Part shown: positions 9,401-40,368 of the stretch, in pieces
How positions within the stretch are numbered: the stretch's first letter is position 1
Layout: every line of letters begins with the position of its first letter
Assembly (NCBI GenBank): GCA_013214355.1
Contig: JABSSL010000111.1
Coordinates: 1-40,368, forward strand
Reading direction: 5' to 3'
Source: Saprospiraceae bacterium
GTDB lineage: Bacteria > Bacteroidota > Bacteroidia > Chitinophagales > Saprospiraceae
DNA: 40,368 nt
Notes under the pieces: model-generated
Database searches by the model: none
Told to the model about the DNA's origin: nothing
What the model saw: only the letters and a program-made list of their open reading frames with translations
Translations under genes and position numbers: made by a program

Positions 9401-10669
9401 AATTTGCTCTGGGGCGGCAATTGAGCGTGTATAGACCTCTTCCAACTGATCGATTACAATAAGCCGTCTACCTACTACTCTGGGTTTCTGTAATATAGCA
9501 GAAGAAGACTCACCTGAACCGTCCGACAATTGCATGATCACTCGATCAATATGTTGGCTTTCTGTCTCGCTGAGCTGATCACGCATTCCACGCAAGTAGT
9601 GCAAAATCATCATGAAGTTGGAACTTGGCGTATTATCGACTTTCTGTCCAGCAGGCGTTTCTATCACATTTTTGATGAGCTCCCACAAGTCCAATTGAGG
9701 ATCATATCTCAGGTGCACAATAGTAAAAGCAGTTTCTAAACGAGGAAATAAACCTGCCTCTAAGAGAGAGGACTTACCGACGCCAGACTGTCCAGATAAT
9801 AGTATGATGGGCGCTGCATGTGGACTCTGTAAGCGGTGGTAAAGATCTCGAATATAGGCGCCACGCCCAAAAAAGACCCGTGCTTCTGCTTTAGTGTACC
9901 GACTTAGAAATCGGAACGGTTCATCCGGGAAATCATAATGTGGGGGAATTTCTGGCAGACCAAAATATGGACTTCTAGCAGCATCGGGGAGGTTCCAGTT
10001 TCGGATATTTTCGTAACCCGGACGAAACTGAATTTCCCAGGGAAAGCGAACCCCATGCTTTTTGACACCAATCCCTCTATCATCTCGGTAAAGAAAAGTA
10101 ATTTCGTCGTCACTCTGTTGAGCTTGCACGTGGAAAGTAGCTTCTTTCCAGGCTTGCTCAAGAGTAGCTCCTTCCGCTAGTGCACGATAGAAACTACTCG
10201 AAAGTTCTGTTGCCACGTGATCGCTAACTGCGGCGATAGTTCCGATCACAGCTGGGATACCTGCATCAATCAGAGCCTGAGCCTGTTGGATCGAGAAACA
10301 ACCGTTCAAGAAAACTAACTTCAGGCCTTTTTGTTCGGCTAGGAATGGGATCAATCCCTTTGCCTTAGCACCGCTCAGACCAGATTCGGGAGTAGATAAT
10401 AACAATTCATCCGTATTGGCGTGTCCGCCATAATGAAATATTGCTATCTGGTTACGAAACCGTTTCCGCTGAAAGACATGAATAAGTTGGTCAAGATCGG
10501 CATTCGGTAAAAGCTGTAGCTGACATAGCCCCTCATCCTCAGCGTGGTCCAGGGACTGCTTGATCTCGTTCAACTCTCTAGCAAGGTTTCGGAGATGAGC
10601 TTTGCTATCAATTTGATCATTTGCAAAAGCAAGTAGGATGACTGGGGGATTAACCTTTGGCGTTGTCAA
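6428..10669 (-). CDS. CHAT protease - STAND NTPase - TM - WD40 protein
   Basis: A 1413-residue multidomain protein. Residues of about 10-180 are a CHAT (caspase-like) domain with the expected His83 (HYGGHA) and Cys124 (LNGC). Residues of about 265-690 are a STAND-type P-loop NTPase: Walker A GQSGVGKSS at 293-301 (Lys299), Walker B LIVIDQLEE at 403-411, and an FSYR sensor-like motif near 447-450. A basic stretch then precedes one membrane helix at about 732-753. Residues of about 810-1413 are WD40 repeats, many with clear SFSPDG...LASASADETAILW patterns. There is no signal peptide, so the protease and NTPase should be cytoplasmic and the WD40 propeller periplasmic. STAND proteins typically oligomerise when a sensor binds its trigger; CHAT proteases then cleave targets. 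It is convergent with the caspase pair. The domain calls are strong; the biological trigger is unknown. Confidence 0.92.
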   Translation of the reverse strand: MTTPKVNPPVILLAFANDQIDSKAHLRNLARELNEIKQSLDHAEDEGLCQLQLLPNADLDQLIHVFQRKRFRNQIAIFHYGGHANTDELLLSTPESGLSGAKAKGLIPFLAEQKGLKLVFLNGCFSIQQAQALIDAGIPAVIGTIAAVSDHVATELSSSFYRALAEGATLEQAWKEATFHVQAQQSDDEITFLYRDDRGIGVKKHGVRFPWEIQFRPGYENIRNWNLPDAARSPYFGLPEIPPHYDFPDEPFRFLSRYTKAEARVFFGRGAYIRDLYHRLQSPHAAPIILLSGQSGVGKSSLLEAGLFPRLETAFTIVHLRYDPQLDLWELIKNVIETPAGQKVDNTPSSNFMMILHYLRGMRDQLSETESQHIDRVIMQLSDGSGESSSAILQKPRVVGRRLIVIDQLEEVYTRSIAAPEQILTPFLKKLRDVISRPELASTKFIFSYRKEFDQEIEQALRLNHLVYEKVFLRKLDEEGIEEVVNGLTNSTVLSNRYRLQVEEGLAPLLAKNLLADKNSPISPVLQIILTKMWREQKVNDLRLFQVESYQALRKNGILLEDFFQEQMLKVKAWETQIGLQVESSGLALDILHYHTTEYQTAGARDLHELRTQYGHAKDILDGLISKFEQLYLLSRSDSNRTILAHDTLGPIITTEVYSSGRPGQRAVRILNSKMIDYLQNPQKTIIDEEDLALVEKGAGGMRMWTIKEQELIDKSKRRRAQLQAERKRRKNIGIAGIVIISFLLIIATLLWQASIKEAKVNRLVSLAFQIEDEDATQSLALLEEALSILPNHHIAIQARHDIYLNNEFYFQTISNRNEIPLNWAVLGPGDSILISGQERNIKWWGASGTPIDSLALGVKMNSASFSKEGQFLCIGGEDGQLRLIFSADQELMLRKPHAYPITALAVSPNGQLILSGDLNGSLNLWDRSRDSSMLPKHDHSSEITALSFSSSGEFFVSGDAVGQLMLHDSKGTRLWTRQQRAKITSVHFGPAGKTIFVGLRNGTLVKWSKSGQFMGYFSGHQKRINSLSFSPDGSSFLSASDDRNIILWDTSMTQLRTYRGHHDIVSTVQFSGDGQFFVSAANDGSAKWWKVKSKVARESFTFPGSIRSLDISEDLDQVLIGLDAPAVQDANQLNALDIDFFDQFEENERSAFVLDLDWQQQQELIGHLKPVSTAKVNPVDGGFITGDDDGKIIIWNAAGERSKTLDAHNGSILAISFSPQGHYLASASADETAILWTSDGDSLLTLEHPQAVSDIDFLANEQAILTTSYDGNIRKWSLEGDLLQTWSTGSAGPITVMTLSPDRKRIVTGHGGVSDSLKLWNLNGQLLYATAISIENSTGAKGVRAVAFTPNGEKIIAGGEGGLLKVFTHLGKPIQTNDDCNGSSIHALHAPDNNKVIIATSDGRLRLFPLLR

Positions 10670-24909: not shown

Positions 24910-27324
24910 CTAGTAGGAACGTTCTTCCTTAAATAGCCCCAATTCAAATCCGAATCCATCGGCTAGCCCTAAGGTCAAATGTACATCGTCAGGCTGAACC
25001 GCACCCACAGAGCCGGTAAAGTGCCTACACTCATCCAAGCCCATCACCAAGGTTTCTCCCATACAAGCAAATATATGACCGCTTGGTAGTGGGATGCCGC
25101 CCACAATAAATCGATTCGGTTCGGGGAGCCTAACGATACCGCCCATAATCTGCTTTAGATCAGGGTAGATGAGTCTGACGTTCTTATCTACATCCGCCGG
25201 GACAGCGAGGTCGCATATGATTTTTGAATCAGTGGACAGATGTTCTGGTAGAATAATCGGTTGGATAGAATTCGAAGAGGTTACGACAATCGGACAGTGC
25301 TTGATCGCCTCCATTTGATCCGTGATCTTGATTCGCAGGTCTGGGTTAAGCTGAAGTAGATCCTTTTTTAACTGCACGATCTTTGGACTACCCAATACGC
25401 GTGGAATTAGAATCATTTCTTCAACTTGACTCGCCAACAACTCGGCATAAGTGTTGGCAATGTTGCCCCCTGCTCCGACGATCGCTACACTCGCATCCTC
25501 CAGTACCACTTTTTTCAGCTTTGCTGCCTCGTAAATGGCTTTTAGCCCAAAACCAACGGTTAGTGAGTTTCCTGTAGTCACTTTCATGTTCTTGGTCTTA
25601 ACCCATCGAGCATTTCGGGTCAAGATAGAGGTGAATCCACCCAAGCCCAGAACTTGGCAGCCATTTGCCTCGGCTAGATTAGCCGCATGTTGAATTTTGT
25701 CGACAATCCATTGGAAATCTCCCGAACGGTAGGCATTTCCGATTTCGCGAGAGTCTAAGAATAGACCAATAAAATTCAAGTGCACGCTTCGTCCTCCACT
25801 AGCCTTTACATTAACCTGGTCGAAGATGACTGGCTCCAGGAATCTCGCCGTACGACTGATTAATCTTTCTAATTCCTTTACAGACCAATTTTCAAAAGAT
25901 TGATCCCAAAGCACTAGATCTTTTGCTTTGATGAAATGTCCCAGAAAGGCTACTTTTCTCTGGCCGATAGGTGGCTGATGTTCAAAGACATCAACTTCTT
26001 GATAATCTGTGATTTTACCAACGGGTCGCTCCACCAAGTAGCTTAATAAACTACCAGCATCGGCTTTTGCGATGATCTCTGCCACCGTTCTCAAGGCATT
26101 CAGGAACTTATAGATATATTCTGTAGAGATGTAGGCAGAAGGTTGAATGCGGAGCGTATTCGGGTTGCTTAAAGTAGGCATGATTCGAATCTGGTATTCA
26201 TGAAGTAAATGCCCAGCAATAACATATCCATAGTAACCAGAGTCGAAAAGAATACGGAGCAAGTTCGAGGAGGAGTTCTTTTGGGTTTGAAAATCGACCC
26301 CTATCATTAATCCCTTCCCTCTCACTTCCTTGATGACGGAGGGAAATTCCGCCCTTATCTTCATTAATTCTGCTTTCAACAAAACTCCCTTATCTGCGCA
26401 TTGCCTGGGTAGATCTTCTGCCACGATCGTATGGAGTACCTCTTCGGCAATGGCAGCACTGAGACCATCGTCGGAAAAGGTCGTGGTATTAATGATCGAA
26501 AAATCTTCAACAAAACGATCTTCTGCCACCAACAAGGCGCCAATTTTCGCCACACCCCCTCCTAAAGCCTTCGATAGACAGATGTAGTCCTTTCGGAGCC
26601 CCATCTGATCAGCAGCTAGCAAGCTACCGGTCCGTCCGAGTCCAGTTTGGATTTCATCTATAATGAGAGGAATGTTATGTTTGGAAGTGATATCATTGAT
26701 CCAGTCCACGAAATTGGAAGGCAATGGAATTATTCCCGCTTCGCCTCGAATGGGCTCTATGATGGCGAAAGAAACGGCTTCGATGTTTTCCAGCGCTGCT
26801 TCCCAACTAGCCGGATCATTAGGATCTAAAAAATCTACTTGTAGATCGTTGCGATTGAAGGGCTCATTATGAACCTTGGAAAAAGACAAGGTGCCCAAGG
26901 ATTTACCGTGATAGGCATTGGTGAGGGCCCAGCAGCGGGATTTGCCGTTCTCAAGGATGGCATGTTTGACTGCCGTTTCTACTGTTTCTGCTCCGGTATT
27001 GGTCAAAACTACTCGGTAGTCACCAAACACTGTCTGTAAGCTCTGATTTAGGCCCTCCACTGCAGATCCCATCGAACCTTGGGTAAAAATGGGCTGCTGA
27101 CTTTGTAGAAAACGAGTAGCAACGGCACTGATACCCGCATGAGCGTGGCCTAAAAAATTGGCTCCATAACCGCCAACTAGATCAAGAATCTTCAGCTCGC
27201 CAGATTCGGTTTGTTGATACAAAATATCGCCTTGTCCTTTGGTGTAGGTAACGTTCAAGCCGAGTGCTTGTAATTTTTCTTGCAGCTTGCTGCGGTAAGC
27301 CTGCTTAGGGTTTTTCTTGTACAT
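24910..27324 (-). CDS. Class III aminotransferase fused to acyl-ACP-reductase-like domain
   Basis: An 804-residue fusion. Residues of about 20-415 are a class III (ornithine/GABA-type) PLP aminotransferase: NTGAETVETAVK at 109-120, the AYHGKSLGTLSFS loop, IIDEIQTGLGRTG with Asp223, and the Schiff-base Lys252 in LSKALGGG. Residues of about 440-804 resemble cyanobacterial long-chain acyl-ACP reductase (AAR): LGLGGFTSI at about 559-567, VTTGNS at about 582-587, a Rossmann motif GAGGNI at 617-622, and HIFACMGETL with Cys754 at the place of the catalytic Cys294 of Synechococcus AAR. AAR makes a fatty aldehyde from acyl-ACP/CoA; the aminotransferase could convert it to an amine. That reaction is inference. 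It lies 254 bp downstream of the CaiB gene on the same strand. Confidence 0.85.
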   Translation of the reverse strand: MYKKNPKQAYRSKLQEKLQALGLNVTYTKGQGDILYQQTESGELKILDLVGGYGANFLGHAHAGISAVATRFLQSQQPIFTQGSMGSAVEGLNQSLQTVFGDYRVVLTNTGAETVETAVKHAILENGKSRCWALTNAYHGKSLGTLSFSKVHNEPFNRNDLQVDFLDPNDPASWEAALENIEAVSFAIIEPIRGEAGIIPLPSNFVDWINDITSKHNIPLIIDEIQTGLGRTGSLLAADQMGLRKDYICLSKALGGGVAKIGALLVAEDRFVEDFSIINTTTFSDDGLSAAIAEEVLHTIVAEDLPRQCADKGVLLKAELMKIRAEFPSVIKEVRGKGLMIGVDFQTQKNSSSNLLRILFDSGYYGYVIAGHLLHEYQIRIMPTLSNPNTLRIQPSAYISTEYIYKFLNALRTVAEIIAKADAGSLLSYLVERPVGKITDYQEVDVFEHQPPIGQRKVAFLGHFIKAKDLVLWDQSFENWSVKELERLISRTARFLEPVIFDQVNVKASGGRSVHLNFIGLFLDSREIGNAYRSGDFQWIVDKIQHAANLAEANGCQVLGLGGFTSILTRNARWVKTKNMKVTTGNSLTVGFGLKAIYEAAKLKKVVLEDASVAIVGAGGNIANTYAELLASQVEEMILIPRVLGSPKIVQLKKDLLQLNPDLRIKITDQMEAIKHCPIVVTSSNSIQPIILPEHLSTDSKIICDLAVPADVDKNVRLIYPDLKQIMGGIVRLPEPNRFIVGGIPLPSGHIFACMGETLVMGLDECRHFTGSVGAVQPDDVHLTLGLADGFGFELGLFKEERSY

Positions 27325-27558
27325 AAAACTTGGTTTTCTAGGGGTTGATAATGGATTACCCTACAAGTTTATGCAGCGGGAATTTCAGTTGAAAAGACTC
27401 TTGATTGGATGCCCTACTTGAATGAGCGATTGGACAGGGGGGGTGATTTAGGAATAGTGGATCACTCTTTTTGGATGGATGGGCGCTGTTTGGGAGGCTT
27501 AGTAAAGGAAGAGCGTGTTTTGCTCATTGAGCGGGAGCAATTACTCATCTAGGGTTTC

Positions 27559-27601
27559 ACCGTACCTCATCCGATGAATCACTCATCGGATGAAGTACGG
27601 T
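27559..27601 (-). other. Near-perfect 19-bp hairpin spanning the CaiB-family stop codon
   Basis: Arms 27559-27577 and 27583-27601 pair over 19 bp with one non-Watson-Crick position, which is a stable G-U pair only in the minus-strand RNA, so the structure is suited to the minus-strand transcript. The 5-nt loop (27578-27582) holds the stop codon of the racemase gene; the last codons form one arm. No T run follows, so it is more likely an mRNA 3'-end stabiliser or attenuator than a normal terminator. Confidence 0.65.
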
Positions 27602-28685
27602 CAATCCCCCAGTCTTTAAAAACTTCCTCGGTATCTTCCCCAGCTGCTCGGGATCCAAAGCGCACGGCGGAGGGGGTTCTGCTAAAGCGAGGAGCAGGGG
27701 CAGGTTGCTTAATGCCATCGAGATCCATATAGGTACCTCTTGCGACATTGTGTGGATGAGATTGTGCTTCTATGAAATTCAATACCGGGGCAAAACAGAC
27801 ATCGGTTCCTTCCATAATCTCACACCATTCGTCTCGTGTCTTGGTTTTGAAAACTTTGATTAGTTTCTCCTTGAAATTAGGCCATTGACTGGGATCGTAC
27901 TGGGCTGAAAATTCTTCAGGGTCCAGCTGTGCTTTCTGTACCAATAAGGCATAAAATTGGGGCTCGATGGAGCCGATGGAGATGTATTTGCCGTCTTTGG
28001 TTTCATACACATCGTAAAAGTGCGCCCCAGAATCTAACAAATTGGATCCGATCCGGGTACTCCATTGGCCCATGCCATGCAGCGTGTTGAAGACGGACAT
28101 CAAAACGGCAGAACCATCCGTCATGGCGGCATCAATTACTTGTCCCTTGCCAGATCGCTGCGTTTCTAGCAAGGCTGCGAGTATGCCCATGACTAAAAAC
28201 ATACCTCCCCCTCCATAATCTCCTACAAGATTCAAAGGAGGAACAGGTCGTTCACCTTTCCTACCGATGGCATGCAGTGCACCAGTCAGGGAAATATAGT
28301 TGATATCATGTCCGGCGGCCTTTGACAAGGGGCCGGTTTGCCCCCATCCGGTCATTCGCCCGATCACTAGCCGGGGATTGCGTTGGTGTAACACCTCCGG
28401 TCCCAAACCTAGCCGCTCCATCACGCCTGGCCTAAATCCTTCGAAAAGGACATCCGCTTTTTCTACCAGCTGTAATAGGCACTCAATATCTTCAGCTTGC
28501 TTCAAATTAAGGGCAATGGAACGCTTGCCTCGGCGATTGCAATCGGGGATCCGCGTTTTGCTCGTGGAGGCCTTCCTTTCTATCAGGATAACATCTGCTC
28601 CCATATCCGCCAATAGCATACCTGCAAATGGACCAGGCCCAAGCCCAGCCATTTCAATAATCTTGATACCTTGTAAGGGACCCAT
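27579..28685 (-). CDS. CaiB/BaiF family alpha-methylacyl-CoA racemase-like protein
   Basis: A 368-residue member of the family III CoA-transferase/racemase superfamily. The start MGPLQGIKIIEMAGLGPGPFAGMLLADMGAD is typical of alpha-methylacyl-CoA racemase (AMACR). His126 in AAGHDINY and Asp156 in NLVGDYGGGGM fall at the same numbers as the catalytic pair of the Mycobacterium racemase MCR, which supports racemase over CoA-transferase activity. The enzyme inverts the 2-methyl centre of branched acyl-CoAs so that they can enter beta-oxidation. Branched fatty acids are abundant in Bacteroidota, so the role fits. It is the fourth gene of the fatty-acid operon, 241 bp after fadJ across a heptanucleotide repeat. 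Its stop codon lies in a strong hairpin. Confidence 0.88.
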   Translation of the reverse strand: MGPLQGIKIIEMAGLGPGPFAGMLLADMGADVILIERKASTSKTRIPDCNRRGKRSIALNLKQAEDIECLLQLVEKADVLFEGFRPGVMERLGLGPEVLHQRNPRLVIGRMTGWGQTGPLSKAAGHDINYISLTGALHAIGRKGERPVPPLNLVGDYGGGGMFLVMGILAALLETQRSGKGQVIDAAMTDGSAVLMSVFNTLHGMGQWSTRIGSNLLDSGAHFYDVYETKDGKYISIGSIEPQFYALLVQKAQLDPEEFSAQYDPSQWPNFKEKLIKVFKTKTRDEWCEIMEGTDVCFAPVLNFIEAQSHPHNVARGTYMDLDGIKQPAPAPRFSRTPSAVRFGSRAAGEDTEEVFKDWGIDRTSSDE

Positions 28686-28926: not shown

Positions 28927-31098
28927 CTAGCCAACCGTGGCGGTAGCTTTTCCAAACTCATGAATGGAACTTCCAGCGGCAGCCATGGCTCTCAGACTAT
29001 CTGGCACTGCCCAACGAGGCCCGAAAGCCTCCGCAAAGGCGTCACAATCCTGGATGAATTGATCCATGCCAACAAAGTCGATGTATGAAAGGGCTCCACC
29101 GGTGTAGATCGGGAATCCCCAACCCAGTACAGATCCAATGTCTCCATCCGTAGTAGATCTCAACACCCCTTCTTCCAAACATCTATAAGCCTCCAGTGCT
29201 TGACGGTGTAGGATGCGTTTCCCAACGGTCTCTTTGTCTAGTGTATCAACATTTGAGTTGTACAACTCCTTTAAACCTGGCCACAATTTCTTTTTGCCAC
29301 CTTCTGGATAATCGTAGAAGCCTTTACCCCACTTCTTCCCTTTCCGCTCATGGTTGTTAACCAGATTCTTTTGAATCTCATACATACGGGTTTGATAAGG
29401 CGCCTTGTTTGGAGAAGGATCACTTTCGTATACGTGCATACCCAAGGTTAGGGTAACTTCATCCGTAACGGCTAGTGGTCCCACAGGCATTCCTTTAGCT
29501 TTGGCTACATTCTCCACCATAGCCGCTGGCACGCCTTCTTCCAACATGAAGATACCTTCGCTAGCAAAGGTGCCAAAGCAACGGGAAGTATAGAAACCGC
29601 GGCTGTCATTCACAACGATGGGCACCTTTCCGATTGCTACCGTATAGTCGACCGCTGCAGCGATGGCTTTTGCCTCCGTCTTTTCTCCCACAATAATTTC
29701 TACCAGTGGCATTTTATCTACTGGGGAAAAGAAGTGGATACCGATAAACTGCTCTGGTCTTTGGGAAGATTGAGCCAACAAGGTAATTGGAATGGTAGAG
29801 GTGTTAGAAGCGTAAACCTTGTCTTCCGCTAGCACGGCCTCGGTTTCCTTGGTTACTTTATCCTTCAAGTTAGGATCCTCAAATACGGCCTCGATCACCA
29901 AATCGCAACCTTCCATTGCCTTCGGATCATCTGTAGGAGTGATACGAGATAGTAAGGCTTGCTTTTTTTCTTCGGTAGATCGACCTCGTTTGATGGCTTT
30001 ATCTAGCAGTTTGGTAGAATAGGCTTTTCCTTTCTCCGCACCTTCTAAGGTAACGTCTTTGAGGACCACTTCCATTCCTGCTTTCGCAGAAACATAAGCG
30101 ATTCCAGCGCCCATCATCCCTGCGCCAAGAATACCTAACTTCTTGATCTCGTATTTTGGCTCATCCTTAGGTCTAGCTTTTCCTTTCTTAGCGGCTTGGA
30201 TACCCATAAATCCAGTTCGGATCATGTTTTTGGCTTCCTTACTATCTACTAGTTTGGTAAAGTAACGAGCCTCAATTTCCAGGGCACGATCAATCGGTAC
30301 CTGTAGCCCATCATGCACTACTTTTAGGATGTAGCGTTGGGCAGGATAGTTGCCGTGGGTCATTTTGGTCAGGTTACCCGCTGCTCCCATCATTACCTGC
30401 ATGCCATTGGGCGTCCAGATATTGCCACCGGGGATTCTATGTTTCTTGTTGTCCCAAGGCTGCACAGGCTTAGGATTATTCTTAATCCAATCCTTGGCCT
30501 TGGCAATCAACTCCTCTTGATTCTCTGCTAACTCATCAATCAAGCCATCCTTCAAGGCTTTCGGAGGACGCACCTCTAGGCCTTGTAGCAGGTACATCAA
30601 AGCATTTTGGATACCGAGTAGGTAAGGCGCTTTTACCGTTCCGCCGCCACCAGGCAATAAGCCTACCTTTGACTCAGGGAAACCCAGCTTAATTTTGATG
30701 TTATTCAATACAATCCGGTGATGGCACGCCAAGCAAAGCTCGAGTCCACCGCCCATGGCCGTTCCATTAATGGCCGCAACAAATGGCTTTCCGGAAGTCT
30801 CAATCTCTCTGAAGGTCGTATGCATTTCTAGCATTCCTTGCAGCTGCCCACCAGGATCACCGCCCATCTTATTCAACTCACGAAGATCTGCACCGGGCAT
30901 GAACATACTACGTCCAGAAGTCACAATGACCCCCGCGATATTATCATCAGCTATAGCTTTTTGCGCTACTTCTAAGTAAGCATTAATGAAAGCCGAGCTA
31001 AATAGATTCGTTGGATTGTTGACCTGATTGATGGTGAAAATGCCGATGCCATCTTCACCCACCACAAATTCGAACAGGTCATTCTTTATGTTTTGCAT
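28927..31098 (-). CDS. fadJ: Bifunctional enoyl-CoA hydratase / 3-hydroxyacyl-CoA dehydrogenase (FadJ type)
   Basis: A 723-residue beta-oxidation enzyme. Residues of about 10-200 are a crotonase domain with both catalytic glutamates, Glu120 (GGGLELCLACHHRI) and Glu142 (GFPESKVGLLPG). A linker follows to about 315. Residues of about 318-500 are the NAD-binding part of 3-hydroxyacyl-CoA dehydrogenase (GAGMMGAG at 325-332; IHFFSPVDKMPLVEI with the catalytic His), and two C-terminal dehydrogenase domains reach the end (GFPIYTGGALSYID). It hydrates trans-2-enoyl-CoA and oxidises the product to 3-ketoacyl-CoA in the cytoplasm. The length matches FadB/FadJ. The partner thiolase lies 59 bp upstream. 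FadB versus FadJ cannot be separated by eye; an acyl-CoA-anchored complex with the thiolase is expected. Confidence 0.93.
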   Translation of the reverse strand: MQNIKNDLFEFVVGEDGIGIFTINQVNNPTNLFSSAFINAYLEVAQKAIADDNIAGVIVTSGRSMFMPGADLRELNKMGGDPGGQLQGMLEMHTTFREIETSGKPFVAAINGTAMGGGLELCLACHHRIVLNNIKIKLGFPESKVGLLPGGGGTVKAPYLLGIQNALMYLLQGLEVRPPKALKDGLIDELAENQEELIAKAKDWIKNNPKPVQPWDNKKHRIPGGNIWTPNGMQVMMGAAGNLTKMTHGNYPAQRYILKVVHDGLQVPIDRALEIEARYFTKLVDSKEAKNMIRTGFMGIQAAKKGKARPKDEPKYEIKKLGILGAGMMGAGIAYVSAKAGMEVVLKDVTLEGAEKGKAYSTKLLDKAIKRGRSTEEKKQALLSRITPTDDPKAMEGCDLVIEAVFEDPNLKDKVTKETEAVLAEDKVYASNTSTIPITLLAQSSQRPEQFIGIHFFSPVDKMPLVEIIVGEKTEAKAIAAAVDYTVAIGKVPIVVNDSRGFYTSRCFGTFASEGIFMLEEGVPAAMVENVAKAKGMPVGPLAVTDEVTLTLGMHVYESDPSPNKAPYQTRMYEIQKNLVNNHERKGKKWGKGFYDYPEGGKKKLWPGLKELYNSNVDTLDKETVGKRILHRQALEAYRCLEEGVLRSTTDGDIGSVLGWGFPIYTGGALSYIDFVGMDQFIQDCDAFAEAFGPRWAVPDSLRAMAAAGSSIHEFGKATATVG

Positions 31099-31157
31099 GA
31101 TTTTCTTTTTTGGTCAATTCGAGAATGAAAGTCTTTGGCAAAAAATACCTGCTTGGT

Positions 31158-32360
31158 CTAGATGCGCTCAATGATGGTAGCAATACCCATACCGCCACCG
31201 ATGCAAAGGGTAACAAGACCCGTACTTAGGTCTCTGCGCTCTAGTTCATCCATCAAGGTGCCCGTTAGCATGCAACCGGTAGAACCTAGTGGGTGTCCCA
31301 GTGCAATGGCTCCACCATTCACATTTACGATAGAGTGGTCTACGCCCATTTCTTCCATGAAGTACATAGGTACTGCCGCGAAAGCTTCGTTCACTTCGAA
31401 TAAGTCAATATCGCTGGCTTGCATACCTGCTTGCTTCAGTGCTTTCTTAGAGGCAGGAGCAGGTCCGATTAGCATGATGGTTGGATCCGTTCCTACCACA
31501 GCTGCAGCACGGATCTTGAAGCGAGGTTTCAATCCCATTTTTTCGCCCACTGCTTTGTTTCCAATTAATGCAACTGAAGCCCCATCTACGATAGCAGAGG
31601 AATTACCTGCATGGTGTACGTGGTTGATTTCTTCAATCTCAGGGTATTTGTCGATGGCTACGGCATCGTACCCACCCATCTGCCCCATCATGGCAAAAGA
31701 GGGTTGTAGGTTACCCAAGCCCTCTAAGGTGGTGGAAGGACGGATATTTTCATCTGTATTCAGGACGGCCAATCCATTCACATCTTGTACCGCTATTCTG
31801 GACTTGAAACGACCTTCACTTTCAGCTTTGCTGGCTCTCATTTGAGATTCAAAGGCGAATTTGTCTACATCATCTCTAGAATAGCCAAACTTGGAAGCAA
31901 TCAAATCAGCAGAAATCCCTTGTGGTACCATTTTACCAGGAATGGCCTGCTCTGGATCTAAAAGGAAACCACCTCCGTCAGATCCCATGGGCACACGAGA
32001 CATACTTTCTACACCACCGGCCACTAGCAAATCAGTAAAGCCAGCTCGTACATAGGCAGCGGCTTGGTTGATCGCCTCCAATCCAGAACCACAGAAACGG
32101 TTCAAGGTAACTCCGCACAGGTGATCACCATATCCCGACTGCTGAGCAGCTGATTTGGCAATATTCACACCTTGATCTTTCACTTGACTTACACAGCCCA
32201 AAATCACATCTTCGACTAGATCTGTATCTAAGTCATTTCTATCTTTCAATGCTTTCAGCACTTGTGTAGATAGCTCGGTAGGCGTCACGCTCATGAGCGC
32301 TCCTTTTTTGTTGCCTTTTCCTCTCACGGTGCGAACCGCATCGTAGATATATGCTTCCAT
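31158..32360 (-). CDS. fadA: Acetyl-CoA C-acyltransferase (3-ketoacyl-CoA thiolase)
   Basis: A 400-residue thiolase. Cys90 in NRFCGSG is the acylated nucleophile, His356 in GGAIALGHPLGSTG and Cys386 in TLCIGGGMG complete the active site, all at normal spacing. It splits 3-ketoacyl-CoA with CoA to acetyl-CoA and a shortened acyl-CoA, the last step of the cycle that the downstream bifunctional enzyme catalyses. It is 55 bp after the isomerase-like gene and 59 bp before fadJ on the same strand, so the three are clearly one operon. FadA versus FadI naming is uncertain; a biosynthetic acetoacetyl-CoA thiolase is less likely given the neighbours. Confidence 0.93.
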   Translation of the reverse strand: MEAYIYDAVRTVRGKGNKKGALMSVTPTELSTQVLKALKDRNDLDTDLVEDVILGCVSQVKDQGVNIAKSAAQQSGYGDHLCGVTLNRFCGSGLEAINQAAAYVRAGFTDLLVAGGVESMSRVPMGSDGGGFLLDPEQAIPGKMVPQGISADLIASKFGYSRDDVDKFAFESQMRASKAESEGRFKSRIAVQDVNGLAVLNTDENIRPSTTLEGLGNLQPSFAMMGQMGGYDAVAIDKYPEIEEINHVHHAGNSSAIVDGASVALIGNKAVGEKMGLKPRFKIRAAAVVGTDPTIMLIGPAPASKKALKQAGMQASDIDLFEVNEAFAAVPMYFMEEMGVDHSIVNVNGGAIALGHPLGSTGCMLTGTLMDELERRDLSTGLVTLCIGGGMGIATIIERI

Positions 32361-32415
32361 AATTTTGTTGATTTATGTTTTTATATTTTTAGACACCAAT
32401 AGGTGCCTGTAGGAT

Positions 32416-33189
32416 TTACTTTTTCTTCAATTGTTCTACAAACATCTTCACCATCATCTGGGCCTCCGGGGTATTGGAGGCTTCAATATGTTCGGCAATC
32501 ATTTCTTCCATTCGTTCTTCGCTCAGATCAACGATCTGATGCAGCTGCTGGGTCAAGTAACGCTTTGAGTCGGCATATACTCTGGGGGTAACGTACATCA
32601 ATTTTTGCAGATAGGCTTCCGCCTTAGGTAACACTTCATCTACTTCAGCCGCTTCATTAACCAAGCCAGCTGCCACGGCCTCATCCGCGTGAAATAGCTT
32701 TGCCTGTTGGACAGCTAACCAAGCATTTTGTTCACCTGCGTAATAAGCATAGATGTGGCACAGTAATTCTGGAATTTGCAAATTCATCTTGAATTCATGC
32801 ATACCAAAAACATGCTTCGGCCCTCGTGCCATAATCTTATAATCGGTCATCAAGGCTAAAATCGTGGCTCCCGCGGGAGCATAGCCAGTGATGGCCCCGA
32901 CCAATGGTTTGGGAAATCTCACCATTTTCTGGCACAGCTGATAATAAGCTCTCCAAAAAGGCCCTGCCAATTCAACCCCGCCCATGGCTAGACTTACAAT
33001 ATCCAAGCCGGCACTAAAGCAATTTGGCCTACCAGATAAGATTACTCCTTTAACCGCATCGTCGTCCAAGAGTTTTGAAAAGGCCTCATTGAGGTCCAGT
33101 AATAAGGGGAGATTAATGGCATTTACCTTGCCATTATCGATCTCGAGGATCGCATAATTTTTCTTTTGGTGGATTTGAACAGTCTCCAT
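32416..33189 (-). CDS. Enoyl-CoA hydratase/isomerase family, delta3-delta2-enoyl-CoA isomerase-like
   Basis: A 257-residue crotonase-fold protein and the first gene of the beta-oxidation operon. The oxyanion-hole sequence AITGYAPAGATILALMTDYKIMA has Ile where hydratases have the first catalytic Glu, while Glu132 (FGMHEFKM) matches the second. Having only the second Glu, together with the PAG and TDYKIMA pattern, resembles mitochondrial delta3,delta2-enoyl-CoA isomerase. That enzyme shifts double bonds so that unsaturated fatty acids can be degraded, which fits the operon; the bifunctional enzyme supplies the hydratase. Start ATG at 33189; predicted operator and promoter lie immediately upstream. 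The general family is certain, the isomerase activity likely. Confidence 0.85.
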   Translation of the reverse strand: METVQIHQKKNYAILEIDNGKVNAINLPLLLDLNEAFSKLLDDDAVKGVILSGRPNCFSAGLDIVSLAMGGVELAGPFWRAYYQLCQKMVRFPKPLVGAITGYAPAGATILALMTDYKIMARGPKHVFGMHEFKMNLQIPELLCHIYAYYAGEQNAWLAVQQAKLFHADEAVAAGLVNEAAEVDEVLPKAEAYLQKLMYVTPRVYADSKRYLTQQLHQIVDLSEERMEEMIAEHIEASNTPEAQMMVKMFVEQLKKK

Positions 33190-33341: not shown

Positions 33342-33354
33342 TTCTTAATAAGAA
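33342..33354. promoter_or_regulatory. Candidate TetR autoregulatory operator
   Basis: TTCTTAATAAGAA is a perfect 6-1-6 palindrome ending on the first base of the tetR ATG. It shares CTTAATAA with the operator at the beta-oxidation start, which suggests one protein binds both sites. Confidence 0.5.
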
Positions 33355-34043
33355 TGGCAGAAGGTGAAATTGGAGATATGAAAGATGAAATGAAAACGCC
33401 AGCCAGGCGTAGAAGAGGGCGACCCAGTAAGGCTAATACTTTAGATCAGGATCTATTGTTGGAACTGACACTCAAGGCTTTTGCTGAAAATGGTTTTGAA
33501 GGGACTAGCTTGAAAACGATCTCTGACCAACTGCATATCGATGACTCGCTCATTTACTACCACTATAAGAACAAGCAAAATCTCTGGAAGCAGGCTATGT
33601 GGCAAGTCATTACGGAGTATGAACGACAGGCCAAGGAAACCGTAAGACTCTGTAAAGATCAAAGTACCATCGATCTCGGAAAATCACTTACCCGGCATCT
33701 CGTCTATTTCATGGCTGATCATATCGAGGTATATAAGATTATGAACCACGAGCTCACCCGCCCATCAGAACGATCAGATTGGATTATAGACAATATGCTG
33801 AAACCGCTGGCAGATCGCTTGTCTCCCATTTTTCAAGCGTATAAGCGGGATGGCTATGAAGTGAATATGCCCATCAATAATTATATAGCCTTGATCTTTG
33901 GTATACTGAGTCAATTCTTTTTCATGGACACCATGAGTAAGCGACTTTATGAGGTCGATGTCTACCAACGAGCCGAAGTTGATCGGCACGCAGATCTTGC
34001 CGTTGAAATTATTTTCTCCTCTATTTTCCGTAAAGTGGAGTAA
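33354..34043 (+). CDS. TetR/AcrR family transcriptional regulator of fatty-acid operon
   Basis: A 229-residue one-domain-plus-ligand-domain regulator. Residues of about 17-24 are a basic arm (RRRRGRP), and residues 30-80 are the TetR helix-turn-helix with the typical FEGTSLKTISDQLHIDDSLIYYHYKNKQNLW pattern. The remainder is a helical ligand-binding domain of unassigned subtype. It is divergent from the enoyl-CoA isomerase/thiolase/fadJ genes and separated from them by 164 bp with shared palindromes, the usual layout for local control. By analogy with FadR- and PsrA-type TetR repressors the ligand is probably an acyl-CoA. I use the ATG at 33354; an ATG at 33378 or 33387 is possible and would drop a few unconserved residues. 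Confidence 0.88.
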   Translation: MAEGEIGDMKDEMKTPARRRRGRPSKANTLDQDLLLELTLKAFAENGFEGTSLKTISDQLHIDDSLIYYHYKNKQNLWKQAMWQVITEYERQAKETVRLCKDQSTIDLGKSLTRHLVYFMADHIEVYKIMNHELTRPSERSDWIIDNMLKPLADRLSPIFQAYKRDGYEVNMPINNYIALIFGILSQFFFMDTMSKRLYEVDVYQRAEVDRHADLAVEIIFSSIFRKVE

Positions 34044-34504: not shown

Positions 34505-35683
34505 ATGAAGTGTTTACTCGTTCTATTGTCATTCATAGTCTGCCAATTTTTGTATGGGCAAGATCCTGTCTTTTCCCAGTTCTATGCTACTCGTACCTAT
34601 CTTAATCCTGCTTACGCTGGCTTTGACCCTGGAGGCAACTTCAACCTAAACTATCGAGATCAATGGTTTGGTTTGCCAGATGGAAGTGGGGGACCCTTTT
34701 CTCCTTCTTATCGCACCTTCAACGCTAATTTAGAATGGCAGTTCCCCTGCTTTCTTCAGCTGGATGAACTTAATCTAGGTATGGCCCTTAATCTATTCCG
34801 GGATGATGCGGGGGATGCTCCTTTCTCCACTTCCGGCGTAGGTCTTGCTTTTAGCTATGAATACAATCTCTTACAAGGCAATGGTAAATTGAAGCGCTTG
34901 GATGTGCGAATCGGAGCACAACTCTCCTACATGCGCAAGACGCTGGATTCAGATTATCTAGTATACTCCTATCAGCTGGATCCGGTGGTTGGCCTGCTTG
35001 GAGATCCCAGCGGTATGCGTTTTCAATCTGATATCTACTCCAATACGAATGTAGGAGCGATGGTTAGGGGGCAATGGGGTAAGAAGAGCACAGCTACGTA
35101 CTTCACTTTTGGCGTGACCTTGTCCAATGTCAATGAGCCAAATGTTTCTTTGCAGGAAGCGGCCTCGGACCTTCGCTTGCCCAGACGCTTGACGGTCCAT
35201 CTAGGGACGACACATCGAATACCGATTTATATTGGAACGAGAAACCCTTGGTACTTGTCTCCTCAGTTCCGTTGGGATACCCAGTTAGGCGGAAAACTAA
35301 ATGTGCAAACGGTGGGACTATTTGCTTTGCAACGTTCTTTCTATTTGGGAACTTTTCTACAATACAACTTTCCTAACGATCCAGTTACTAATACAGGCAT
35401 TATTGGACCTTGGCGAAGCCGCAATACCACTTCCCTTATTCTAAATGCCGGCTTTGACCTTCGATCCACCTGGGATAACTATCGCCGTGGCAATCGCAAT
35501 GATAAGGGGATTATTCTAGGCTTAAGCTATGATATCAACTTCGGTGGACTAGAATTGAGTGACACCTATGGAGTAGTGGAATTAAATCTACAATTCCGTT
35601 TGGGTGGCTCCAGGAATAAAGCCTGCCGTATTGTGGCTCCTTTTGATCTATATAAAGGAGGGGAGTGCCCCGTCAGATTCTAA
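34505..35683 (+). CDS. PorP/SprF family type IX secretion membrane protein
   Basis: A 392-residue outer-membrane protein. The start is ATG 34505, 11 codons inside the longest frame, because it begins a clean signal peptide (MKCLLVLLSFIVCQF, cleaved before QDPVFSQFYA). QDPVFSQFYATRTYLNPAYAG is the hallmark of PorP/SprF proteins; the rest is a series of amphipathic strands for a beta-barrel, ending in an aromatic-rich strand (VVELNLQFRLGG). In Flavobacterium, SprF is needed to export or anchor the SprB adhesin; PorP has a like role in Porphyromonas. Here the large repeat adhesin starts 47 bp downstream, so the two very likely form such a pair. Confidence 0.93.
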   Translation: MKCLLVLLSFIVCQFLYGQDPVFSQFYATRTYLNPAYAGFDPGGNFNLNYRDQWFGLPDGSGGPFSPSYRTFNANLEWQFPCFLQLDELNLGMALNLFRDDAGDAPFSTSGVGLAFSYEYNLLQGNGKLKRLDVRIGAQLSYMRKTLDSDYLVYSYQLDPVVGLLGDPSGMRFQSDIYSNTNVGAMVRGQWGKKSTATYFTFGVTLSNVNEPNVSLQEAASDLRLPRRLTVHLGTTHRIPIYIGTRNPWYLSPQFRWDTQLGGKLNVQTVGLFALQRSFYLGTFLQYNFPNDPVTNTGIIGPWRSRNTTSLILNAGFDLRSTWDNYRRGNRNDKGIILGLSYDINFGGLELSDTYGVVELNLQFRLGGSRNKACRIVAPFDLYKGGECPVRF

Positions 35684-35730
35684 TCCAATCATCTAAACCT
35701 ACGCGTTTTACCTCAATAAACAGCTACAAC

Positions 35731-38700
35731 ATGATGCTACCCCGCCCCTATACTTTAACCCTGATGCCTCTATTGATGGTTTTGTCAATACCATTAGTTG
35801 GCCAGGACTGCAACGCTAACTTTACAACTGGTACCCCCGGAGGATGTAATGTGGTTTCTTTTACACCGGCAACTAACGATAATGATATTTCTTTTCAGTG
35901 GAACTTTGGAGATGGGGAGACGTCTACGGAGAGGAATCCTGAACATGTCTATTTTGTTGATGAATCAGGAAGCTATTCCTATGATGTGACCCTAATTGTA
36001 ATTGGATCCTGTGTGCCAGATACGGTTACTAATCGGATAAGTATTAATGTGGGAGTTTTGCCAGACCCATCTATTGATCCGATTAATGCTCCGCTACCCG
36101 ATTTTAAGAATTGTGGGGCTACTAATGATGATCCAAATTTTCTCTTGCGAATAAATGACGCATCAGCCACTGCAGCTACGAATGCTGAATACATTATCGA
36201 TTGGGGAGATGGAACGACACCTTATCAGGGTGTAACACTTCCAAATTTGACAAGTCATGAGTATACCAGTGTGGGGTTATTTGATGTCGTAGTGACAGTT
36301 ATTGGTAACAATGGTTGTCAGGCTCGCCGGATTTATGAATTCTTTAATGGTAGTAACCCTGGGGGGAATGTTACGACATTGGGTAATACCACCGCTTGCA
36401 TACCAGAAACAGTTTCATTTCCGATCCGAGATTGGGAAGAGAACGTAACCGGAACGAAGTATCGCCTTTGGGTTGGGGATGGGCTTAGTGACACAACTGT
36501 GTTTCCACATCCACCACCACTAACAGATGGTGAATTTTCGTATCAATACACTTTTACAACTAGTTCTTGTGATTCCAACACCGTATCAACTGATGGTAGT
36601 TTCACCGTGTTTTTTGAAGCAGAAAACAAATGTAGAACTCAAAAAGGTGAAACATCCATTGTTATGAATAGGCCTCCTGAATCCGATTTTACCATTGATG
36701 ATGATGAACAATGCTCAGGATCTGTGTTTACCTTTACCAATGTTTCTACACCTGGTGTCTACTCTCTCAGTGACGGTTCCTGCAGTAGTGATATGCTAAC
36801 ACTTTGGACTATCTCCCCAAATCGTGGTTATACTTTAGAACCAGGCGAAAGTCTTAGCAATGAAGGTGGTTTTTCTGCACAATTTAATGAGCCTGGAACC
36901 TACGAGATTACAATGTTATACGAGACCCTGCTGAGTTCAGGTTGCGAACCAGATATGGTAACCAAAACCATCTGTGTGCTTCCCATACCAGAAAGTAGTT
37001 TCAATGTAAATAGGATGTCTGGTTGTGCCACCTTTACCATTGAAACCACCAATACTTCCAACACCTTGAACAGTTGTCGTGAAGGCACCGATTATACTTG
37101 GATCATGCGCTACGATCCAGGGGAATGTGCAGTTGGACCTGCTTTTGAGTACGTCAATATGACCAACGAAAATGACATTAATGTAGAGATTCAATTTGAT
37201 TCAGCAGGGATCTACGAATTAGGGCTCATCGTCAGTAATGAGTGCCTCCCACCGGATACCTCGTTTCAGACGATTGTAGTTTCCTCCCGACCTATCACTA
37301 CACTAGCAATGATCCCAGATACCTGCTTTACTGGGCCAATTACCATCGAACCTAGTGTGACTAGCACCACTGGATGCTCGGATGATCCCAACTATAGCTG
37401 GAATTTTCCTGGCGCCAATCAAACTTCAGGTAGCGGTGCCAATCCAGGACCAGTGACTTATGATGAACCGGGGGTATATACGATTACGGTAAACACCAGC
37501 AATGATTGTGGTAATCGTAGTACTTCACGGACCTTTGAAATTTTTGCCCCACCCACCATACCGAATATCACCTTTAACAGTCCCATCTGTATTGGGACCA
37601 CTGCCCGCTTCATTAACCCCAATCCAGGTAATTTTATGTATTCTTGGACGGGGCCAGCAGGCTTTACCTCTTCGGTGCCGGCCCCCGAAATTGCGGATGT
37701 CACAGCCGCACAGAGTGGTACTTATGAGTTAGTTATAACCGATCCGCAGACGGGCTGTACCAATACGCGGAGTTTTCCCTTGCAAGTTACCACTACTGCT
37801 CCTTTGACCGTCACGCCCAATCCCGCTAACATTTGTGTCGGAGAATCAGTCGTGTTAACTGTCTCTGGACCGAGTACGGTGACTTGGCGTCCAGGAGACC
37901 ACCTCAGTAGTACGATGGGAACTTCGGTGACGGTCAGTCCTCCGACTGTCGGTACATACGAATATATTGTGGAAGGAACAGACCCGAACGAATCTTGTAA
38001 TGGTTTGGATACCGTAGTCGTGATCGTCAATCCTTTGCCCGTGGTTGAAGCTGGTGAACGGCAAGTAGCTTGCGTAGATACTGATTTTCAGTTGACGGGC
38101 TCACCAGCAAATGGAGAAGGAGGAACGGGGACTTGGGGTGGACCCAATGTCGCGGCCAATGGCACTTTCAATAGCAGTGATGCTGGGGTCTTCACGGTCG
38201 GCTACAGATTCGTAGATGACAATGGGTGTGAAGCGGTGGATAGTACACAGGTCTGTGTGATTCCTGATCCGGTTGCGAGTTTTTCTCTTAATAATACAAC
38301 AGGTTGCCTAAATCTACAGGTAGCTGCATCGAATACTTCCAATACAATCGGGGGATGTGAAGCAGCGGTATACGAATGGTCGGCTTCTTTGTTAGATGCG
38401 GAATGTCATGAAAATGATGGGGGTGTGCAGTTTGTGGAAGGAACCAATGCTACCTCCGAAAATGCCGTTTTCCGTTTTCCGCAGTCGGGGATCTATGAGA
38501 TCAGTTTGATGGTCATGAACGATTGTAATACAGTGACCAGTACACAACAAGTTACTGTTGGAGAGACTCCTCAAGTAAGTCTGGATCCCATTGGAGATGC
38601 CTGTGGGAATGCCAATATTACCCCCACCTTTACGGCGCTTAACTGTAATTCGACGATTACGACTTACGAATGGGAATTTGTGGGGGGAAATCCGAGTACT

Positions 38701-40368
38701 TTTTCTGGGATGAATCCGCCAGCGGTAAGTTATGTCACGCCAGATTGTTATACGGTGAAATTGACGGTTACCAACGACTGTGGCTCCGACGTAGACATGA
38801 TTGAATTTTGTGTTTTGGAGGGTCCAACTTTGGATGCAGATTTAAGTGCCGACTTTGTATGTCAGGACGGGACGATCAACGCCATTAATAATTCACAAGG
38901 CGATAATCTCACCTATCAGTGGTCGGCTAGTTCGACTCAGATCGGCATTAGCGCCGAAACTGCCGCCGCTCCCACCTTTTCCTTTACTGATGTCCCTCAA
39001 GGAGACTACCAGATTACCTTAGAAGTTGCTAATGCTGCCTGTGCAGGGTTAACAGAACAATTTGATATTCGAGTTATAGAAGATCCCAGTGTGGCGATGA
39101 ATCCGATTGAGGATTTCTGTGAAAGTGCTCGGATTACTCCTTCTGCTACCTTTAGCGATGAAGATTTCATCGACTCTGTTCGTTGGACCTTCCCGCCAGA
39201 AGCCGATATTCAGACCTCCGATCAATTGTCTCCTGGAGATGTCAATATCAATGAAGCTGGTGATTACACCTTTAGTGTCACGGTTTACAATGCCTGTAAT
39301 GAGCAAACATCTTCGCAATCTTTTAGAGTGCTGGAGGGACCGAATCTAGACATCTCCTTAGACACCACATTTGTTTGTGTAGGTGCTGGTACGATTTCGG
39401 TGATGAATAACTCCAGTGGAGATGACTTGGCCTATACTTGGACGGAAAGCAGCGGGGGGCAGATTCAGATTTCAGATGCAAGTGCCGACAGTCCTACCTT
39501 CAGTTTTGCCAATACCCCCATTGGAGATTATCAAATTATGGTTAGCGTTGCCAATCCCGTTTGTGATGGATTGACGCAAACATTTGATATTCGAGTGAGT
39601 GAAACACCTACGGTGACGCTAGCTGCGATAGATAATTTCTGCGAAACTGCCCGTATCCAACCAGTCCCTACCTATAGCGATGAAAATTTCATTGATTCCG
39701 TTCGTTGGATTTTCCCAGCAGAAGCCAATGTTCAGACCTCTGATGCGCTAGATCCTGGGGAAATAGAGATCAACCAGCCGGGAGATTATACGATTCAGGT
39801 GACGGTATATAATGCTTGTGGACCCAACAGAGCTGAGCAAGCCTTCCGTATCTTAGAGGGACCAAATCTGGACATTGCGCTGGACACTGCTTTTGTATGT
39901 GCGGGTTCCGGTACGATTTCGGTGATGAACAACTCTAGTGGCGACGACCTTGCTTATACTTGGACAGAAAGTAGCGGTGGGCAGATTCAAATTTCAGATG
40001 AAAATGCGGCCAGTCCCACCTTTAGTTTTACCAATACCCCCATTGGGGATTATCAAATTACGGTTACGGTGGCTAACCCCGTCTGTGATGGCTTAACGCA
40101 GACCTTTGATATTCGCGTGAGCGAGACGCCCACGGTTACCTTGGGTACGATTGAGGATTTTTGTGAAACAGCTCGTATCCAACCTTCACCTTCTTACAGC
40201 GATGAGGACTTTATCGATTCTGTTCGTTGGACCTTCCCGGTGGAAGCAAACGTGCAGACTTCAACGGCATTAGATCCTGGAGAAATAGCGATTGATCAGC
40301 CTGGCGATTATACCTTTTCCGTTACCGTATACAATGCTTGTGGACAAAATAATGCGCAACAATCTTTT
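35731..40368 (+). CDS. Giant PKD/Ig-repeat surface adhesin, 3' end beyond window
   Basis: The frame is open from ATG 35731 to the window edge: 1546 codons without a stop, incomplete at the C-terminus. A signal peptide (residues 1-29, ending VGQ) is followed by PKD domains, seen most clearly at FQWNFGDGETS and IIDWGDGTTPYQG, and then many degenerate PKD/Ig-like domains with paired Cys. From residue 1031 onward a larger unit repeats every 172-174 residues, and the last copies are nearly identical. It should be exported by T9SS and act as a filamentous adhesin or gliding adhesin like SprB; a C-terminal T9SS domain of type B is expected beyond the window. The preceding SprF-like gene is its likely partner. 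No catalytic domain is seen in the visible part. Confidence 0.9.
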   Translation, partial: MMLPRPYTLTLMPLLMVLSIPLVGQDCNANFTTGTPGGCNVVSFTPATNDNDISFQWNFGDGETSTERNPEHVYFVDESGSYSYDVTLIVIGSCVPDTVTNRISINVGVLPDPSIDPINAPLPDFKNCGATNDDPNFLLRINDASATAATNAEYIIDWGDGTTPYQGVTLPNLTSHEYTSVGLFDVVVTVIGNNGCQARRIYEFFNGSNPGGNVTTLGNTTACIPETVSFPIRDWEENVTGTKYRLWVGDGLSDTTVFPHPPPLTDGEFSYQYTFTTSSCDSNTVSTDGSFTVFFEAENKCRTQKGETSIVMNRPPESDFTIDDDEQCSGSVFTFTNVSTPGVYSLSDGSCSSDMLTLWTISPNRGYTLEPGESLSNEGGFSAQFNEPGTYEITMLYETLLSSGCEPDMVTKTICVLPIPESSFNVNRMSGCATFTIETTNTSNTLNSCREGTDYTWIMRYDPGECAVGPAFEYVNMTNENDINVEIQFDSAGIYELGLIVSNECLPPDTSFQTIVVSSRPITTLAMIPDTCFTGPITIEPSVTSTTGCSDDPNYSWNFPGANQTSGSGANPGPVTYDEPGVYTITVNTSNDCGNRSTSRTFEIFAPPTIPNITFNSPICIGTTARFINPNPGNFMYSWTGPAGFTSSVPAPEIADVTAAQSGTYELVITDPQTGCTNTRSFPLQVTTTAPLTVTPNPANICVGESVVLTVSGPSTVTWRPGDHLSSTMGTSVTVSPPTVGTYEYIVEGTDPNESCNGLDTVVVIVNPLPVVEAGERQVACVDTDFQLTGSPANGEGGTGTWGGPNVAANGTFNSSDAGVFTVGYRFVDDNGCEAVDSTQVCVIPDPVASFSLNNTTGCLNLQVAASNTSNTIGGCEAAVYEWSASLLDAECHENDGGVQFVEGTNATSENAVFRFPQSGIYEISLMVMNDCNTVTSTQQVTVGETPQVSLDPIGDACGNANITPTFTALNCNSTITTYEWEFVGGNPSTFSGMNPPAVSYVTPDCYTVKLTVTNDCGSDVDMIEFCVLEGPTLDADLSADFVCQDGTINAINNSQGDNLTYQWSASSTQIGISAETAAAPTFSFTDVPQGDYQITLEVANAACAGLTEQFDIRVIEDPSVAMNPIEDFCESARITPSATFSDEDFIDSVRWTFPPEADIQTSDQLSPGDVNINEAGDYTFSVTVYNACNEQTSSQSFRVLEGPNLDISLDTTFVCVGAGTISVMNNSSGDDLAYTWTESSGGQIQISDASADSPTFSFANTPIGDYQIMVSVANPVCDGLTQTFDIRVSETPTVTLAAIDNFCETARIQPVPTYSDENFIDSVRWIFPAEANVQTSDALDPGEIEINQPGDYTIQVTVYNACGPNRAEQAFRILEGPNLDIALDTAFVCAGSGTISVMNNSSGDDLAYTWTESSGGQIQISDENAASPTFSFTNTPIGDYQITVTVANPVCDGLTQTFDIRVSETPTVTLGTIEDFCETARIQPSPSYSDEDFIDSVRWTFPVEANVQTSTALDPGEIAIDQPGDYTFSVTVYNACGQNNAQQSF
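38821..40368 (+). repeat. Tandem 522-nt repeats in the adhesin gene
   Basis: The motif encoding GPNLDI or GPTLDA starts at 38821, 39337 and 39859 (steps of 516 and 522 nt), and DEDFIDSVRW-like codons start at 39157, 39679 and 40201 (exactly 522 nt apart twice). Each 174-residue unit holds two Ig/PKD-like domains. DNA similarity increases to the right, and the array continues out of the window. Confidence 0.88.

Follow-up and report, generated by a model that had tools for sequence, protein, structure and literature searches.

An aminotransferase-acyl-ACP reductase fusion in a Saprospiraceae bacterium: a probable thioester reductase/transaminase of the TamH/KecF kind

Results

Genes and features of the locus

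The window, by which we mean the whole stretch of 40,368 nucleotides analysed here, carries an intact open reading frame with an ATG start, in which a class III aminotransferase is followed by a reductase domain related to cyanobacterial acyl-ACP reductase (AAR). Genes for an alpha-methylacyl-CoA racemase and for enzymes of beta-oxidation lie upstream of it on the same strand, followed by a divergent gene for a TetR-type regulator (Table 1). The fusion is the only one of its kind in its genome, where the 11 other matches all fall in the aminotransferase half. A Pfam scan of the 18 large ORFs of the window (80 aa and longer) found no carrier, adenylation or ketosynthase gene, and neither the Rfam scan nor the tRNA scan of the window found anything. 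The type IX secretion system (T9SS) genes that Pfam recognizes among the window ORFs indicate a member of Bacteroidota. Two further observations concern the more distant parts of the window: a WD40 protein with a caspase-like domain (Peptidase_C14) and an nSTAND1/WD40 protein, possibly of the signalling or cell-death type, are encoded close together (2253-5576 and 6428-10669), and a PorP/SprF gene is followed by a very long repetitive ORF (35665-40368) of at least 1568 aa that runs off the end of the window and looks like a secreted surface protein.

Table 1 Features of the fusion gene and its surroundings, in window positions
Feature	Position	Strand	Evidence
Fusion ORF, 804 aa, AAR-type thioester reductase following a class III aminotransferase	24910..27324	-	NCBIfam/Pfam; AlphaFold2
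Aminotransferase domain, residues 25-385	26170..27252	-	Pfam Aminotran_3, E 1.7e-60
Lys252 codon, expected PLP lysine	26569..26571	-	Conserved in 28/28 rows; role assigned from family
AAR-type reductase domain, about residues 455-799 (approximate limits)	24928..25962	-	NCBIfam, profile alignment, domain model
Cys754 codon, expected acyl-transfer cysteine	25063..25065	-	Aligns with SeAAR residue 294
Block immediately 5' of the fusion start, identical in part among three congeners	27356..27395	-	Alignment of three intergenic regions
18-bp hairpin that includes the racemase stop codon	27560..27600	-	-34.7 kcal/mol, z -8.0
Alpha-methylacyl-CoA racemase	27579..28685	-	PDB 9i2t, 1x74, E ~4e-121
FadJ-type multifunctional enzyme, thiolase, crotonase	28927..33189	-	Pfam/NCBIfam
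TetR-type regulator, transcribed away from the beta-oxidation genes	33354..34043	+	Pfam/NCBIfam

Domain assignment of the C-terminal half

The sole Pfam match in the C-terminal half of the fusion is Shikimate_DH (residues 603-717, E 6.4e-10), which covers the Rossmann part only. When the C-terminal 365 aa were searched alone against NCBIfam, the best model was PigE (E 2.9e-27), followed by AAR TIGR04058 (E 3.5e-17, profile positions 38-307 of 339) and the glutamyl-tRNA reductase HemA (E 8e-9). A profile built from 17 fusion-type reductase domains matched PigE (PDB 4ppm) at 7.7e-59 and the cyanobacterial SeAAR (6jzq) at 2.8e-48 in the PDB, and the Cys754 column of this profile corresponds to Cys294 of SeAAR, the position being counted from the printed alignment. 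With the whole fusion as well as with its C-terminal half, PigE is both the best NCBIfam model and the best PDB sequence match. Both scores, however, lie far below the curated cut-offs, at 316 bits against 850 for the whole fusion with the PigE equivalog NF053554 and 62.8 bits against 449.7 for the C-terminal half with the acyl-ACP reductase equivalog TIGR04058, so that close functional equivalence to either enzyme does not follow.

Structure prediction agrees with this assignment. AlphaFold2 modelled the full-length fusion with a pLDDT of 87.5 and a pTM of 0.87, and the reductase domain alone with 88.5 and 0.88. The 50 PDB matches listed for the full-length model all have the class III aminotransferase fold, with CrmG first and PigE second. 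The closest PDB structure to the reductase-domain model is SeAAR 6jzy (E 1.8e-22, TM 0.77/0.82, 21% identity over the structural match). The next closest fold after AAR is the TAD domain of the carmabin pathway (PDB 9e4s, 9e4u, 9e4x), which is another AAR-like domain from a natural-product enzyme. Identity of the C-terminal domain as a shikimate dehydrogenase was considered and rejected, given an NCBIfam E-value of 0.015 for that family against 3.5e-17 for AAR, and a TM score of 0.37 for the closest shikimate dehydrogenase (3o8q, E 5.9e-6) against 0.77. An earlier note, made from the sequence alone, had proposed that an aminotransferase and an AAR-like domain are joined in this chain and that Cys754 is the counterpart of Cys294, and had named two outcomes that would speak against it, namely a mismatch of these cysteines and a grouping with dehydrogenases such as shikimate dehydrogenase. 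The domain matches and the fold bear out the first proposal and the 17-domain alignment the second; because Cys754 aligns with Cys294 in the profile and AAR is the best fold, neither of those two outcomes was seen.

The motifs GGFTSI and TTGN and the Rossmann glycine motif, which the earlier note had listed, are all found in the C-terminal half together with Cys754. The nucleotide-binding motif, reported as GxxGxxG for PtTamH, reads GAGGNIA in the fusion, with the first two glycines kept and the third replaced by Ala, a substitution that the alignment also places in Streptomyces and G685 relatives having the same layout.

Known enzymes of the same layout and the proposed reaction

The earlier note had held that no characterised enzyme has this domain order, a statement that two published systems show to be wrong. 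PtTamH, from the tambjamine YP1 pathway of Pseudoalteromonas tunicata, has an N-terminal class III aminotransferase, a C-terminal AAR-type reductase and a catalytic Cys, as does the fusion when compared by description, and was assayed in vitro in 2022, where it converted C12 acyl-ACP via the aldehyde into the amine with NADH and L-Glu (PMC9594044). It differs in length and numbering (941 aa and Lys340, against 804 aa and Lys252 in the fusion; PMC9594044), and, judging from its length, it probably has insertions in the aminotransferase similar to those of relatives of 940-995 aa. A further difference is that the TamA-like adenylation-ACP gene of the PtTamH system has no counterpart among the scanned window genes. 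KecF, from the koreenceine pathway of Pseudomonas koreensis, was described in 2019 with the same domain order, and the same chemistry was proposed for it, so that the likeness to the fusion is again one of description; a transposon screen in that study hit the gene of a PLP-dependent aminotransferase, here taken to be kecF (PMC6498172). KecF is encoded in a cluster rich in ketosynthases, together with KecA-E, G and H, whereas no genes of this sort were recognized among the scanned window genes.

PigE of prodigiosin biosynthesis (PDB 4ppm) consists of the same two domain families in reversed order, with the reductase first, and acts on a 3-acetyloctanoyl thioester; there is evidence for both of its steps, with conversion seen in lysate and no product detected with the purified enzyme (PMC8341465). 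SeAAR (6jzy, TIGR04058) shares with the fusion the fold, the position of Cys294 and the GGFTS and TGN motifs, but it stands alone and hands its aldehyde to ADO, and the low identity and the score far under the equivalog cut-off set the two apart. Because the layout has already been described in other bacteria, the window gene is an uncharacterised addition to a known kind of enzyme and not a new kind.

Taken together, the domains, the catalytic residues and the analogy with PtTamH make the conversion of a thioester via an aldehyde into an amine, as the earlier note had suggested, the best-supported reading, and the fusion probably belongs with TamH and KecF as a bifunctional thioester reductase/transaminase, with both reactions and their direction assigned by homology. 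The AAR-type domain would accept the acyl group of a carrier thioester to form an acyl-enzyme at Cys754, which would be reduced by hydride from NAD(P)H to release the aldehyde, and the N-terminal PLP domain, through Lys252, would then convert the aldehyde into a primary amine, an amino acid supplying the amino group. ACP is more likely than CoA to be the carrier.

The neighbouring beta-oxidation genes

The vicinity of the racemase, FadJ, thiolase and crotonase genes raises the possibility that the fusion is instead part of a beta-oxidation operon and turns a 2-methyl-branched or chain-shortened acyl-CoA, supplied by the racemase, FadJ and the thiolase, into a branched amine. All of these genes lie on the same strand, and the order racemase, FadJ, thiolase, crotonase, TetR beside the fusion is kept in the congener G574 and, as far as its contig reaches, in the congener G575. 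The racemase, however, adjoins the fusion only within the genus. In the more distant fusion-bearing genomes of the family (G617, G698, G685, G609 and G621), the 7 to 11 kb retrieved on the upstream side of the fusion contain no match to any of the five neighbour genes, and none had a match at E 1e-8 around 20 fusion loci from outside the family, whose flanking stretches differ in length. Orthologues of FadJ and thiolase occur in G591, together with a TetR match, and in G164, where a racemase-like match of 33% lies nearby, and neither genome has a match to the C-terminal half of the fusion; in G609, these orthologues lie on contigs other than that of the fusion. In addition, C12-CoA was not converted by PtTamH in vitro (PMC9594044), and the fusion is separated from the racemase by a gap of 254 bases containing a strong hairpin. 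Membership in such an operon is thus unlikely, and the FadJ, thiolase and crotonase genes probably form a separate beta-oxidation unit. The linkage was therefore rejected as weak functional evidence, and the earlier remark that the neighbouring acyl-CoA genes fit the proposed function loses its footing, given a neighbourhood confined to the genus, orthologues in relatives with no match to the fusion's C-terminal half and the hairpin in between.

The hairpin is likely the 3' end of the upstream transcript. It recurs in G574 at -36.9 kcal/mol (z -8.9; a stretch that cut the hairpin off gave -26.9), and 5 of its 18 pairs are changed on both sides between the window and G574, a number reached by 12 of 500 shuffles, with slid controls giving 0 or 1 pairs; since only two sequences are compared, this support from pair changes is suggestive. 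Termination at this position is what we infer, because the hairpin of G575 is weaker (-21.1 kcal/mol, z -2.2), and the window hairpin lacks a T-run behind it and is absent from the list of the terminator scan. The partly identical block between the hairpin and the fusion may hold the fusion's own promoter. A sigma-70 scan placed no site within this block on the minus strand and found 3 sites in the region against a shuffled mean of 5.9, an uninformative result. Promoters of Bacteroidota differ from the sigma-70 type.

Conservation and selection

An alignment of 28 fusions, comprising the window, 7 rows from the family and 20 others with near-duplicates included (two from Haematobacter and two from Streptomyces), keeps Lys252 in every row and Cys754 in 26, the remaining 2 ending at contig edges before that residue. 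The fusion is under purifying selection, with a dN/dS of about 0.035 against G574 at a dS of 1.45, which is near saturation; in the other pairs of the window, synonymous sites are saturated. These data bear on another alternative, in which the aminotransferase alone is functional and the C-terminal Rossmann domain has lost its activity or taken on another role. The Ala in place of the last glycine in the nucleotide motif and the low score against the AAR equivalog would fit such a loss, as would the tendency of the reductase half to be less conserved than the aminotransferase half against distant rows, for example 30% against 40% identity for the distant row L014. Nevertheless, Cys754 is kept in all 26 rows that reach it, and in comparisons with G574, G575, G617 and G698 it is the aminotransferase half that has diverged more (95% identity in the reductase half against 88% for G574), the reductase half also having the lower pN, so that an idle reductase domain seems very improbable.

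Distribution and phylogeny

The full-length fusion is present in three of the four genomes of the genus, and the fourth, 80% complete, has aminotransferase matches only. The C-terminal half was matched at E 1e-8 or better in 13 of 398 family genomes, 8 of which carry the fusion as judged from identity, frame length and tblastn, two of them cut by contig ends. The other 5 have weaker matches, and in 4 of these, from other genera of the family (L112, L113, L114, L115), the weak AAR-type match lies in a frame of 364-390 aa; the L112 piece matches TIGR04058 at 9.4e-32, which suggests that stand-alone AAR-like proteins exist in Bacteroidota. At strict cut-offs, no genome other than the window's own was found among 198 genomes drawn evenly from the order (1e-60) or among 395 drawn evenly from the phylum (1e-45).

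A contig search across genomes returned at least 591 stretches from at least 576 relatives. Among the best 80 loci, which were kept, both halves lie in one ORF with the aminotransferase first at 14, 3 more are fusions that are cut or frame-broken, 1 has the PigE order (Microbulbifer, L089), and 3 have the two halves as neighbouring genes; at the remaining 59, most of the matching listed falls in the aminotransferase half. In 12 plasmid records a region covers 80% or more of the query, and five of the ten listed were examined. Fusions were seen in Bacteroidota, Planctomycetota, Bdellovibrionota, Bacillota and Actinomycetota, and a search of open-licence articles in PMC, preprints being outside its scope, found no description of such a fusion in Bacteroidota.

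In a midpoint-rooted tree of 27 rows, from which L023 was left out, the window forms one clade with G574, G575, G617, G698 and G609 (support 100/100), which G685 joins as the nearest outgroup (98/98). The copy of G621 is a long branch grouping with a Bacteriovoracaceae MAG (100/100). The window clade shares its half of the tree with the KecF-like Photobacterium and Streptomyces rows, at a fork that is drawn open, and the deeper forks are partly unresolved.

Discussion

The gene contexts of the fusion outside the family are varied. An adenylate-forming gene was detected by phmmer in the flanks of 6 of the 20 fusion loci, and a plasmid of Leisingera is a seventh locus with adenylation, having one such domain fused and another gene, missed by phmmer, annotated nearby. 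Ketosynthases occur at 4 of the 20 loci, and L009, L020 and L033 resemble the koreenceine cluster type, with ketosynthases, an ACP, the fusion and two SDRs. The presence of adenylation or ketosynthase genes beside some homologues and the biosynthetic roles of PtTamH, KecF and PigE (PMC9594044, PMC6498172, PMC8341465) make it extremely unlikely that the fusion runs in the catabolic direction, deaminating a long-chain amine and oxidizing the aldehyde to an acyl thioester that feeds beta-oxidation, even though transaminases are reversible in principle and beta-oxidation genes are adjacent; the reverse reaction for amine breakdown that the earlier note had allowed for thus finds no support.

The two activities of the proposed thioester reductase/transaminase also occur in other arrangements. 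The Leisingera protein (L011:8947-13134) combines an aminotransferase, an AAR-type reductase and an adenylation domain in a single chain of 1395 aa, the first and last being recognized by Pfam and the AAR part by alignment. Separate genes are found as an unfused trio of an aminotransferase, a Polyketide_cyc (SRPBCC-type) protein of about 145 aa and an AAR in Tumebacillus avium (L040:9863-12657), and in the same order in an Actinomycetota MAG (L034:6339-9231) and another MAG (L042:9899-12719), where lipid binding is a possible role of the middle protein. The occurrence of the two activities as separate genes or as an aminotransferase-AAR-adenylation chain is as a shared pathway predicts. At 3 of the 20 loci, two from Planctomycetota and one from a Bacteriovoracaceae MAG, a PPDK_N gene (ATP-grasp phosphotransferase-like) lies directly 3' of the fusion (L014:10614-12488, L015:12819-15551, L022:12766-15093).

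Within the family, mutually homologous FemAB-like genes adjoin the fusion in G685 (L118:7930-12783, fusion 40% identical) and in G621 (L120:2403-9162, fusion 27% identical). Genes for a CDP-alcohol phosphatidyltransferase and GtrA lie upstream at the G685 locus, and two P450 and two radical-SAM genes are found at that of G621. The FemAB/lipid theme does not appear at the scanned fusion neighbours in G617, G698 and G609, and a search with PF04339 in the 8 fusion genomes found matches in 4, namely G621, G685, G617 (on a contig other than that of the fusion) and G698 (below the cut-off), and none in G609. A FemAB-like partner in the genus of the window was rejected, as PF04339 has no match in its own genome, G574 or G575. 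One speculative possibility, which we regard as rather unlikely, is that the fusions of this family of Bacteroidota produce an amine-based lipid not yet described, and that the gene became detached from the FemAB cluster in the genus of the window; the FemAB-like neighbours in G685 and G621 hint that the amine would be acylated further.

If the reading of the fusion as a thioester reductase/transaminase holds, the one-chain conversion of acyl thioesters into amines would extend beyond the pathways of tambjamine, prodigiosin and koreenceine, and the fusions would represent many candidate fatty-amine biocatalysts, with uncharted amine products in prospect.
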